Assembly: GCA_947499095.1 (NCBI GenBank)
Contig: CANMMR010000004.1
Span: forward strand, 124,001-188,000
DNA length: 64,000 bases
Origin: an uncultured Erythrobacter sp.
GTDB taxonomy: Bacteria > Pseudomonadota > Alphaproteobacteria > Sphingomonadales > Sphingomonadaceae
Reading direction: 5' to 3'
Part shown: positions 12,082-45,177 of the stretch, piece after piece
Numbering within the stretch: the stretch's first letter is position 1
Layout: each line of letters opens with the position of its first letter
The notes under the pieces: model-generated
The model's database searches: none
What the model was told of the DNA's origin: nothing
The model's input: the letters and a program-made list of their open reading frames with translations, nothing else
Made by a program: the position numbers and the translations under genes

Positions 12082-12106
12082 GGAACGGCTTACTCGATAA
12101 GTTGTT
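12082..12106 (+). promoter_or_regulatory. Candidate general-stress (EcfG-type) promoter upstream of entericidin gene
   Basis: GGAAC (12082-12086), 16 bases, then TGTT (12103-12106). The known alphaproteobacterial EcfG/RpoE2 consensus is GGAAC, 16-17 bases, CGTT. The predicted transcript would start near 12113, about 40 bases before the ATG. E. coli entericidin B is under the stationary-phase sigma factor, so the functional fit is good. Confidence 0.55.
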
Positions 12107-12155: not shown

Positions 12156-12290
12156 ATGAAAAAACGTGTCCTGACCATTTTCGCATTTGCCGCCGCCGCG
12201 CTGCTTTCGGCCTGCAACACCGTCGACGGTATCGGTGAAGACGTCGAATCCGTGGGCGACTGCGCCGACGGTGTGGAAGGCAACTGCTGA
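12156..12290 (+). CDS. Entericidin-like small lipoprotein
   Basis: A 44-residue lipoprotein, MKKRVLTIFAFAAAALLSAC then a short mature part with NTVDGIGEDVESVGD, matching entericidin A/B (EcnA/EcnB) peptides. The lipobox LSAC marks lipidation at C20. Start 12156 is chosen over 12150 because AGGGGAG lies 8 bases upstream. Entericidins are stationary-phase or stress-induced membrane lipopeptides sometimes linked to lysis; their role in alphaproteobacteria is unclear. A GGAAC-type promoter precedes it. The gene is below the ORF-track length as a trimmed frame. Confidence 0.85.
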   Translation: MKKRVLTIFAFAAAALLSACNTVDGIGEDVESVGDCADGVEGNC

Positions 12291-12315
12291 CCACCGGCGA
12301 CAAGCCAATGTAATT

Positions 12316-12347
12316 CGATGGCGCTGCCCCCGCGGGTGGCGCCATCG
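12316..12347 (+). terminator. Possible terminator hairpin after the entericidin gene
   Basis: A 9-bp perfect inverted repeat (CGATGGCGC / GCGCCATCG) encloses a 14-base loop containing the palindrome CCCGCGGG. It lies 25 bases after the stop codon. No long T tract follows, so termination is uncertain. Confidence 0.45.
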
Positions 12348-12380
12348 TCGTCTCGGGGTCCATCGCGCTAGTGGCTCCGC

Positions 12381-12410
12381 GGAACTAGCCGCCCTTCCCG
12401 ACCATTGGTT
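12381..12410 (+). promoter_or_regulatory. General-stress (EcfG-type) promoter, copy 1
   Basis: GGAAC (12381-12385), 17 bases, CATT (12403-12406). Within it the 17-base block CTTCCCGACCATTGGTT (12394-12410) is identical to one upstream of the aldehyde dehydrogenase at 43753-43769, with GGAAC at exactly the same distance. It is 18 bases before the start codon of the disordered protein gene, giving a very short leader. Confidence 0.65.
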
Positions 12411-15918: not shown

Positions 15919-16913
15919 GCCAGCGCCAGCTGCGCGGCCTTGGCGAACAGCGTCGGCAAGCCGGCCTCGTCGAGCTTGTCGAGCGGCCACCACTCGCCCT
16001 CGCCCAGCGGCGCACCGTGCCTCTGAACCGAGAGTTCGAGATCGAAATGCGTGAAGCCGTGGCGCACGAGACCGAGCGGTTCGCCGGCCGGTCCGCCCTC
16101 CCCGTCGCCGCGTGCGCTCCAGCCATCGTCGGGCAGTGCGCGCATCCCGCCGAGCATCCCGGTGCCCTCGCGCCGCACGAGCCAGACCGCATCGTCGCGC
16201 TCGATCCACCACGTGCGGCCCTTGCGTAGCGGCTTGGCCTTCTTCGGCGCCTTCACCGGCAAACGGGCCGGATCGCCGGCCTTCCTGCCTTCGCATTCGT
16301 CCGCCAGCGGGCACAGCAGGCACTTCGGGTCACGCGCCGTGCAGATCGACGAGCCCAGATCCATCATCGCCTGCGCGAAATCGCCAGCACGCTCATCGGG
16401 CGTGATCATGTCCGCCTTCGCAAGGATCGCCTTGCGCGCGCCGGGCAGAGGCTCATCGATGGCAAACAACCGCGCGACCACCCGTTCCACATTCGCATCG
16501 ACCACCACCGCCCGCTGTGCGAAAGCAATCGCGGCGACGGCGGCGGCAGTGTAGTCGCCCAAACCGGGCAGTTTGCGCAATTCTTTCTCGCTGGAGGGAA
16601 ACGCTCCCATGTCCGCCACTGCGCGGGCGCATTTCACCAGATTGCGGGCGCGCGAGTAATAGCCCAGCCCCGCCCATGCCGCCATGACGTCTTCCTCCGG
16701 CGCAGCTGCCAGCGCTTCGACCGTCGGCCACCGTTCGGTGAATACGGCAAAGTAAGGCTTCACGGCAGCCACCGTAGTCTGCTGCAGCATCACCTCGGAC
16801 AGCCACACGCGATAGGGCTCGGGCGCAGGCGTCCCGGGCGGCGCGCGCCACGGTAGATCGCGGGCATGGCGATCGTACCAGTCGAGCAAAGTTTCGGAGA
16901 CAGTGGCGGCCAC
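15915..16913 (-). CDS. mutY: A/G-specific adenine DNA glycosylase MutY
   Basis: A 332-residue MutY from GTG 16913. The helix-hairpin-helix LPGLGDYTAAAV and following catalytic Asp (VVDANVERVV) are present, as is the 4Fe-4S ligand set C-x6-C-x2-C-x5-C (CTARDPKCLLCPLADEC). A C-terminal NUDIX-like domain recognises 8-oxoG. It removes adenine mispaired with 8-oxoguanine. GTG 16913 follows an AGG by seven bases; the longer ATG frame would run into the divergent dciA start. Confidence 0.93.
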   Translation of the reverse strand: MAATVSETLLDWYDRHARDLPWRAPPGTPAPEPYRVWLSEVMLQQTTVAAVKPYFAVFTERWPTVEALAAAPEEDVMAAWAGLGYYSRARNLVKCARAVADMGAFPSSEKELRKLPGLGDYTAAAVAAIAFAQRAVVVDANVERVVARLFAIDEPLPGARKAILAKADMITPDERAGDFAQAMMDLGSSICTARDPKCLLCPLADECEGRKAGDPARLPVKAPKKAKPLRKGRTWWIERDDAVWLVRREGTGMLGGMRALPDDGWSARGDGEGGPAGEPLGLVRHGFTHFDLELSVQRHGAPLGEGEWWPLDKLDEAGLPTLFAKAAQLALA

Positions 16914-42156: not shown

Positions 42157-43728
42157 ATGGCAGACACCTCCGAAGGCCCCGTCCTCGTCCCCATCCTCGG
42201 CGACCAGCTGACCCGCGACCTCTCCTCCATCAGGGGCCGGACGAAAGACGATACCGTCATCCTGATGATGGAGGTCTGGGACGAGGCAACTTACGTCAAA
42301 CACCACAAACAGAAGATCGTCCTGATCTTTTCCGCCATGCGCCATTTCGCCGAAGAATTGCGCGATGCCGGCTGGACGGTCGATTACGTGAAGCTCGATG
42401 CCGAGGACAATGCGGGCAGCTTCACCGGCGAGGTCGCGCGCGCGGTCGAGGAGCATTCCCCGCGCGCCATCCACGTGGTCGAGCCCGGCGAGTGGCGCGT
42501 GCGCGAGGCGATGGACCAATGGGCGGACAAGTTCCCCTGCGAGGTCGAGATCCTGCGCGACGACCGGTTCCTCTCCACCCAAGCCGAATTCGACGACTGG
42601 GCCGAGGACCGCAAGGAACTGCGGATGGAGTATTTCTACCGCGAGATGCGCCGCAAGACCGGGCTGCTGATGGACGACGGCAAGCCCGAAGGCGGGGAGT
42701 GGAATTACGACAGCGAGAACCGCAAACCGCCCAACGACGGCATGACGTCGCCCGAGCGCCCGAAGTTCGAGCCCGACGACATAACGCAGGACGTCATCGA
42801 ACTGGTCGAGGACCGCTTCGGCGACCACTTCGGCAGCCTCGAGAAATTCCGCTGGCCCGTGACGCGCGACGAGGCGGAGGAAGCCGCCGACGCCTTCTTC
42901 GCTGAACGGATCGAACATTTCGGCCCCTATCAGGACGCGATGGTCTGCGGGGAGGACGACCTCTACCACTCGATGCTTTCGACCAGCATCAATCTCGGCC
43001 TGCTCGATCCGCTGGAACTCTGCCGGCGCGCCGAGCAAAGCTACAAGGACGGTAAGGCCCCAATCAATTCTGTCGAGGGTTTCATCCGCCAGATCATCGG
43101 CTGGCGCGAATATGTCCGCCGCTTCTACTGGCACCAGATGCCGCATCTGCAGGAAGCCAATGCGCTCAACGCCCAGCGCAGCCTGCCGGAATTCTACTGG
43201 ACGGGCGAGACCGACATGCGCTGCCTCGCCGACTCCATCCGCTCGACGCGCGACAACGCCCATGCCCACCACATCCAGCGGCTGATGGTGCTCGGCAATT
43301 TCGCGCTGCTGGCAGGCATCGACCCGCGCGAGGTGCAGGACTGGTACCTCGTCGTCTACGCCGATGCCTATGAGTGGGTAGAGCTGCCGAATGTCTCGGC
43401 CATGATCCTCTATGCCGATGGCGGCAAGCTGGCGTCCAAACCCTATGCGGCCAGCGGCAACTACATCAACAAGATGAGCGACTACTGCGCCAACTGCTCA
43501 TACTCGGTCAGCAAGAAGACCGAGGAGAATGCCTGCCCGTTCAACTCGCTCTACTGGCATTTCATAGATCGCCACCGCGACCGGCTGGAGAAGAACGCGC
43601 GTATCGGGCGAATCTATTCGACCTGGGACCGGATGGATGAGGACAAGCGCCAGGCCTATCTCGACCGGGCGGACAGCTTTCTCGACAGCCTGACCCCGGC
43701 GGACAAGGCCTGGGCGCGCGCCGATTGA
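42157..43728 (+). CDS. FeS-cluster bacterial cryptochrome/(6-4) photolyase
   Basis: A 523-residue member of the FeS-BCP/CryPro group: VLVPILGDQLTRDL at the start, IGWREYVRRFYW, HHIQRLMVLGNF for FAD, and the C-terminal cysteines SDYCANCSYS and ENACPFNSLYWHF that with one upstream Cys bind 4Fe-4S. Members (PhrB type) repair (6-4) photoproducts with light. It is 33 bases after priA. A GGAAC stress promoter for the next gene overlaps its end. Confidence 0.9.
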   Translation: MADTSEGPVLVPILGDQLTRDLSSIRGRTKDDTVILMMEVWDEATYVKHHKQKIVLIFSAMRHFAEELRDAGWTVDYVKLDAEDNAGSFTGEVARAVEEHSPRAIHVVEPGEWRVREAMDQWADKFPCEVEILRDDRFLSTQAEFDDWAEDRKELRMEYFYREMRRKTGLLMDDGKPEGGEWNYDSENRKPPNDGMTSPERPKFEPDDITQDVIELVEDRFGDHFGSLEKFRWPVTRDEAEEAADAFFAERIEHFGPYQDAMVCGEDDLYHSMLSTSINLGLLDPLELCRRAEQSYKDGKAPINSVEGFIRQIIGWREYVRRFYWHQMPHLQEANALNAQRSLPEFYWTGETDMRCLADSIRSTRDNAHAHHIQRLMVLGNFALLAGIDPREVQDWYLVVYADAYEWVELPNVSAMILYADGGKLASKPYAASGNYINKMSDYCANCSYSVSKKTEENACPFNSLYWHFIDRHRDRLEKNARIGRIYSTWDRMDEDKRQAYLDRADSFLDSLTPADKAWARAD

Positions 43729-43739
43729 GACAGGCCGCA

Positions 43740-43769
43740 GGAACGCGGCTCGCTTCCCGACCATTGGTT
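43740..43769 (+). promoter_or_regulatory. General-stress (EcfG-type) promoter, copy 2
   Basis: GGAAC (43740-43744), 17 bases, CATT (43762-43765), with the block CTTCCCGACCATTGGTT at 43753-43769 identical to that at 12394-12410 and GGAAC at the same distance. It is 29 bases before the aldehyde dehydrogenase ATG and lies just past the photolyase stop. Confidence 0.65.
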
Positions 43770-43797: not shown

Positions 43798-45177
43798 ATG
43801 TCCAGCATTACCACCGTCAACCCCGCCACCGGCGAAGATATCGAAACCTACCAGCAGATGTCGAAGGAAGATGCCTTCGCCAAGGTGGAGGCGTGCCACA
43901 AGGCCTTCACCGAATGGAAGCTGCGCAGTCTCGAGGACCGGGCGGAAGTCATCAAGGGCGTCGGCAAGGCGTTGCGAGACAACAAGGAAGAGCTGGCGCA
44001 GCTGATGACCCGCGAGGTCGGCAAGCTGATCGGCGACAGCCGCGACGAAATCGAACTGTGCGCCGGCATTTGCGACTACACCGCTGCCAATGGCCCCAAG
44101 GAACTGGCCGACGAGCAGCGCGATCCGAACAATGCCGCGCGCGGAATCGTTACCTATTCTCCGATCGGCGTGGTCTATGGCATCCAGCCGTGGAATTTCC
44201 CCGCCTACCAGGTCATTCGCTATGCCATCGCAAGCCTCATGGCCGGCAATGGCGTGCTGCTGAAGCACTCCTCGCTGTGCACCGGTAGCGGGTTGATGAT
44301 CGAGAAGATTTTCGAGGAAGCAGGCCTGCCCGAGAACCTCTTCACCGTGCTGGTGATCGACCATGATACGTCCGACGAAATCATCGGACACGACAAGGTC
44401 CGCGGCGTTACGCTCACCGGATCGGACGGCGCAGGCCGTCATGTCGGCGAAAGGGCGGGCAAGGCGATCAAGAAGACCGTCCTCGAACTCGGCTCGAACG
44501 ACGCCTATATGGTCTTGGAAGATGCCGATCTCGACAAGGCTGCCGAGGTTTGCGCGCAGGCCCGGCTCTACAATAACGGCCAGACCTGCATAAACGGCAA
44601 GCGCTTCATCGTGACCGACAAGGTCTACGACGCATTCCTCGAGAAGTTCGTGGCGCACTTCGAAGGTGTGAAGCTGGGCGATCCGACCGACGAGGATAGC
44701 GACATGGGCCCGATGTCCTCCGCCGACCTGCGCGACGACCTGCAGGACCAGGTGGACGAGTCGGTCAAGAACGGCGCGAAGATCGCCTGCGGCGGTAGCG
44801 TGCCCGACAAGAAGGGGGCCTGGTATCCGGCGACCGTCCTCACCGATGTCGCACCCGGCCAGCCTGCCTATGACGATGAATTATTCGGCCCCGTAGCCAG
44901 CGTCATCCGCGCCAAGGACGACGAAGACGCCATGCGTCTCGCCAACGACAGCCGCTATGGCCTCGGCGGCGGCATCCTGTGCGGCGATACCGAGCGCGCG
45001 ATCGAGCTGGCCTCGAAGCACTTCGACACCGGCATGGTCTACATAAACACCTACGGTGTGGCCGATCCGTCGATGCCTTTCGGCGGCGTGAAGAACTCCG
45101 GATACGGCAAGGAACACGGCGGCTTCGGCATCAAGGAGTTCGTCAATGCGAAGGCGATCTTCGTCGGCGCTGAGTAA
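43798..45177 (+). CDS. NAD(P)-dependent succinate-semialdehyde dehydrogenase-type aldehyde dehydrogenase
   Basis: A 459-residue aldehyde dehydrogenase. PWNFPAYQVIRYA, catalytic Glu in LELGSND, catalytic Cys in NNGQTCING and PFGGVKNSGYGKE are intact. The short form and LELGSND fit GabD/SSADH-like enzymes; the exact substrate is uncertain. AAAGAGG precedes the ATG. A GGAAC-type promoter lies upstream, so it is probably induced in general stress, perhaps for reactive aldehyde removal (inference). Confidence 0.88.
   Translation: MSSITTVNPATGEDIETYQQMSKEDAFAKVEACHKAFTEWKLRSLEDRAEVIKGVGKALRDNKEELAQLMTREVGKLIGDSRDEIELCAGICDYTAANGPKELADEQRDPNNAARGIVTYSPIGVVYGIQPWNFPAYQVIRYAIASLMAGNGVLLKHSSLCTGSGLMIEKIFEEAGLPENLFTVLVIDHDTSDEIIGHDKVRGVTLTGSDGAGRHVGERAGKAIKKTVLELGSNDAYMVLEDADLDKAAEVCAQARLYNNGQTCINGKRFIVTDKVYDAFLEKFVAHFEGVKLGDPTDEDSDMGPMSSADLRDDLQDQVDESVKNGAKIACGGSVPDKKGAWYPATVLTDVAPGQPAYDDELFGPVASVIRAKDDEDAMRLANDSRYGLGGGILCGDTERAIELASKHFDTGMVYINTYGVADPSMPFGGVKNSGYGKEHGGFGIKEFVNAKAIFVGAE

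Follow-up and report, generated by a model that had tools for sequence, protein, structure and literature searches.

Genes and promoter-like sites at the two loci

The window (the whole stretch of DNA that was analysed, 64,000 nucleotides, G000:C4:124001-188000) is part of an uncultured Erythrobacter genome of 2.96 Mb in 25 contigs, and it contains the same block twice on the forward strand, as GGAACTAGCCGCCCTTCCCGACCATTGGTT at 12381-12410 and as GGAACGCGGCTCGCTTCCCGACCATTGGTT at 43740-43769. Both copies consist of GGAAC, eight bases that match in part between the copies, and 17 identical bases (CTTCCCGACCATTGGTT); in register 25 of the 30 bases are the same. The preliminary description had reported a block that occurs twice with the same spacing, 17 bases between GGAAC and CATT, and 17 consecutive matching bases ahead of unrelated genes, all of which we found again: the genes encode a hydrophilic protein of 80 aa and an aldehyde dehydrogenase, respectively. 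The features at the two loci are:

12082..12106, + strand: EcfG-like promoter GGAAC-N16-TGTT before an entericidin-like gene (conserved in four close relatives)
12157..12291, + strand: open reading frame of an entericidin-like small lipoprotein, 44 aa (weak NCBIfam and Pfam matches; ends approximate to 1-2 bases)
12381..12385, + strand: -35 box GGAAC of the predicted EcfG-type promoter of the 80-aa gene (orthologue comparison)
12386..12402, + strand: 17-base spacer TAGCCGCCCTTCCCGAC (no change among five close species, variable elsewhere)
12403..12406, + strand: -10 box CATT, replaced by CGTT in most orthologues; GGTT comes next (orthologue comparison; for Sphingopyxis granuli, CATT has been tested in vitro, PMC7083833)
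12428..12670, + strand: open reading frame of the 80-aa hydrophilic protein, with the ribosome-binding site GAAGGAGA ahead of it
43740..43744, + strand: -35 box GGAAC of the predicted EcfG-type promoter of the aldehyde dehydrogenase gene (GGAAC upstream of most homologues)
43745..43761, + strand: 17-base spacer GCGGCTCGCTTCCCGAC (comparison with close relatives)
43762..43765, + strand: -10 box CATT, followed by GGTT
43798..45177, + strand: succinate-semialdehyde-dehydrogenase-like aldehyde dehydrogenase, 459 aa (PF00171, E=1.9e-135)

The CATT box ends 21 bases before the start codon of the 80-aa gene and 32 bases before that of the dehydrogenase gene. The 80-aa protein has no match in Pfam or NCBIfam, and its named relatives are found in Erythrobacter, Qipengyuania and other Erythrobacteraceae. 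The best NCBIfam model for the dehydrogenase is that of the NADP-dependent succinate-semialdehyde dehydrogenase (SSADH), with a score under the cut-off of the model (467 vs 730 bits), and a literature search for SSADH together with PhyR returned nothing. Upstream, the dehydrogenase promoter is adjoined by a gene for a photolyase-related protein (PF04244, DPRP; 42157-43728), which ends some 11 bases before the -35 box.

The promoter-like site at 12082-12106 had been overlooked in the preliminary description. The small gene behind it (46 aa if started at an ATG six bases upstream) matches the NCBIfam models for entericidin A and B (4.4e-06 and 1.3e-05, both below cut-off) and, weakly, the Pfam Entericidin model (0.0052), and more distant homologues carry a GGAAC/CGTT site at the same position. 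Just 3' of this gene lies a hairpin-like inverted repeat (GATGGCGCTGCCCCCGCGGGTGGCGCCATC, 12317-12350), largely conserved in relatives, which is possibly its terminator.

Conservation of the boxes in relatives

Ahead of the 80-aa orthologues, the -35 box, the spacing and a -10 box are kept in nearly all of about 35 genomes: GGAAC, a spacer of 16-17 bases and CGTT (CATT in the clade of this genome), directly before the ribosome-binding site. The exceptions are two genomes with GGATC, one in which CTTG replaces the -10 box, and one orthologue (L177) that lacks a clear site. An EcfG-like promoter thus runs almost throughout this family of hydrophilic proteins of about 80 aa, which occurs in many Erythrobacteraceae and carries no Pfam or NCBIfam name. 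Among the 30 dehydrogenase homologues examined, nearly all have GGAAC at about -58 to -74, with a variable -10 (CATT, CGTT or less clear boxes), and a few, for instance that of G071, have no recognisable pair of boxes.

Distribution of the motif and of the block in the genome

The genome was surveyed by pattern search and by inspection of short stretches around the matches. The motif GGAAC-N16/17-CRTT gave 77 matches genome-wide versus 73 for the reversed pattern, which served as control; a genome-wide scan, proposed in the preliminary description, hence yielded no enrichment in the raw count, and the bare motif proves nothing by itself. One could take from this that the two sites are chance GGAAC...CATT words without promoter function. 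Position, spacing and boxes are conserved across many species at both loci, however, and it is position and conservation that carry the assignment, so that we regard chance words as very improbable. Two other motif matches in the window, at 16465 and 40103, are probably intragenic and were set aside.

The block itself is far more restricted. With up to three mismatches, CTTCCCGACCATTGGTT was found in the window only in the blocks at 12381-12410 and 43740-43769, whereas shuffled windows contained on average 0.07 copies and none of 100 shuffles contained two. A third exact copy of GGAAC-N8-CTTCCCGACCATTGGTT is lacking in the whole genome. With at most two mismatches, the 16-base core is found additionally only at L003 and L004, and at both of these the flanking sequence inspected lacks a correctly spaced GGAAC, leaving no third promoter-placed copy. 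A third apparent CTTCCCG site (G000:C6:225154, GGAACGCCCTCGCCTTCCCGTCCGTT) is probably coding: it falls within a long open frame, of which the sequence inspected covers 289 codons, and no start was seen close to it.

Origin of the extended match

The preliminary description had seen in the extra identity a hint of a recent duplication or of a second binding factor; neither suggestion was borne out. A recent copying of one promoter to the other locus, by duplication or gene conversion, would explain 30 bases in register of which 25 are identical, and should leave homology beyond the core or the highest identity in the ancestor. We observed neither. The identity ends at the edges of the block, outside of which the loci agree in 0-4 of 10 bases per step, so the flanks are without homology, and an orthologue of each promoter occupies the corresponding locus in other species. 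Close relatives show differences between the two sites within the block: at the dehydrogenase gene, G036, G077 and G002 have CCTCCCGACC and not CTTCCCGACC, and read CCTCCCGACCATTGGTT, with a C where this genome has a T. The less related G076, aligned by spacing, likewise has a C at that position. The simplest explanation is therefore that the T which completes the 17-base match arose in this lineage. Since the dehydrogenase gene of the more distant G001 and G081 already has CATTGGTT, and CGTTGGTT is frequent among the orthologous 80-aa promoters, the block was assembled stepwise. Relatives and flanks together led us to reject promoter copying, to which we give hardly any probability.

Another possibility is that both EcfG promoters are also bound, at CTTCCCGACC-CATTGGTT, by a further transcription factor through which the two genes would be co-regulated. 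In line with such a factor, four species have TCCCGACCATTGG at both loci, and five species agree in every base of the 80-aa promoter spacer, although three of these five differ from this genome at 21-26% of the fourfold-degenerate sites in the dehydrogenase gene. Invariant spacers are nevertheless common (9 of 25 EcfG-like promoters have no spacer difference from G077), and the invariance of the 80-aa spacer thus looks like ordinary promoter conservation. A shared second regulator should also be recognisable from more than a pair of promoters, or from conservation independent of the sigma boxes, and neither was seen: this genome has no third promoter-placed site within two mismatches of the core, no other promoter recurs with the block in the five relatives searched (positions only), the block is absent from the orthologous promoters outside the clade, where the 80-aa spacer changes freely, and in close relatives the block is not the same at the two sites. 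We consider a second factor highly unlikely. The same low probability applies to a related reading, in which TCCCGACCATTGGTT, as a selected extended -10/spacer element of a small Erythrobacter/Qipengyuania clade, tunes a subset of two genes within the EcfG regulon, either via DNA shape or through an accessory protein. In the spacer of the dehydrogenase promoter, three close relatives carry ...CCTCCCGAC, and in two of these three the left half is altered as well.

How often such a match would arise by coincidence was estimated by column-wise resampling of the 31 hand-curated EcfG-like promoters of this genome, with tail values that rest on few simulated events. A 17-base run in register has a probability of 1.5e-6 to 2e-6 per promoter pair. 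For a regulon of 31 promoters this corresponds to 0.0007-0.0009 runs per genome, and for one of 79 promoters to 0.005-0.006; for a 15-base run, the state common to the close relatives, about 0.006 to 0.04 per genome is expected. When all motif matches in this genome are paired with one another (2926 pairs), the run anchored on the -10 box is 13 bases for the pair described here and 10 for the next best. Given the low expectation per genome and this gap, coincidence is comfortable only when it is allowed that many genomes were scanned: the match is rare in one genome, and unremarkable, being expected somewhere, in a large multi-genome scan. CATT-GGTT or CGTT-GGTT is moreover a recurring -10 flank in the regulon, and only a few close species have TCCCGACC at both sites. 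The extended match is probably coincidental and no new control element.

The general stress regulators and a model

The genome encodes the regulators that such promoters call for. NepR was identified with 61.7 bits (Pfam cut-off 25.7), directly followed by the open reading frame of an ECF sigma factor, assigned as EcfG from its ECF sigma domains and its position next to nepR, and PhyR (PF22029, E=2.4e-23; NCBIfam PhyR family, 7.4e-52) lies about 2-3 kb from these genes. The cluster is located at G000:C6:56-59.5 kb (L035, L113), and a sensor-kinase-like reading frame, recognised by eye only, is divergent from nepR. Both nepR and phyR are preceded by GGAAC-N16-CGTT, and in all about 31 EcfG-like sites precede genes expected in the regulon, including CsbD-like and entericidin-like genes. 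The RpoE2, RpoE4 and sigmaT promoters of Sinorhizobium, Rhizobium etli and Caulobacter belong to the same sigma family and share the core boxes with EcfG.

With GGAAC-N17-CATT at both loci (within the 16-17 base spacing of EcfG promoters), a short distance to the gene that is conserved in most relatives, and PhyR, NepR and EcfG in the same genome, both copies are very probably EcfG (RpoE2-type) promoters, as the preliminary description had proposed. Our preferred reading, held with considerable confidence, is that the two blocks are EcfG-dependent general-stress promoters whose extra spacer identity is mostly coincidence. From work in relatives we infer the dependence on EcfG, the transcript starts and the cascade: under stress, phosphorylated PhyR would bind NepR and thereby free EcfG, and the EcfG-containing RNA polymerase would read GGAAC as -35 and CATT, 17 bases further, as -10, and transcribe the 80-aa gene and the aldehyde dehydrogenase gene. 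The spacer identity would have arisen mostly by coincidence among the tens of promoters that make up a GC-rich regulon, with a last C-to-T change at the dehydrogenase promoter in this lineage extending the match to 17 bases.

Two or three predicted targets with good support, among them the unnamed family of hydrophilic proteins, can be added to the general stress regulon of the Erythrobacteraceae, and the case illustrates that a repeated promoter word, however striking, need not imply a new regulator.

Comparison with known systems

The closest parallel is the EcfG regulon of Sphingopyxis granuli TFA, for which the part of the report drawn on here describes 79 transcription units and up to 14 different -10 boxes, with a nearly fixed -35 and a flexible -10 (PMC7083833). 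Its promoters resemble both of those described above in having GGAAC as -35, a spacer of 16-17 bases and CGTT as -10 with CATT and TGTT as variants; CATT is an accepted variant that is active in vitro, and mutation of CGTT to CATT lowered the output (PMC7083833). The likeness extends to the targets, which include small uncharacterised proteins, csbD and ecnAB, and to the autoregulation of nepR-ecfG (PMC7083833). The two promoters of the window differ in that they share 9 bases of the spacer and another 4 behind the -10 box: in the same part of that report the spacer sequence is thought to tune promoter output, and a shared spacer element is not described (PMC7083833). By description, the RpoE2, RpoE4 and sigmaT promoters can be likened to both sites as well, with the same sigma family and the same core boxes (PMC7083833).
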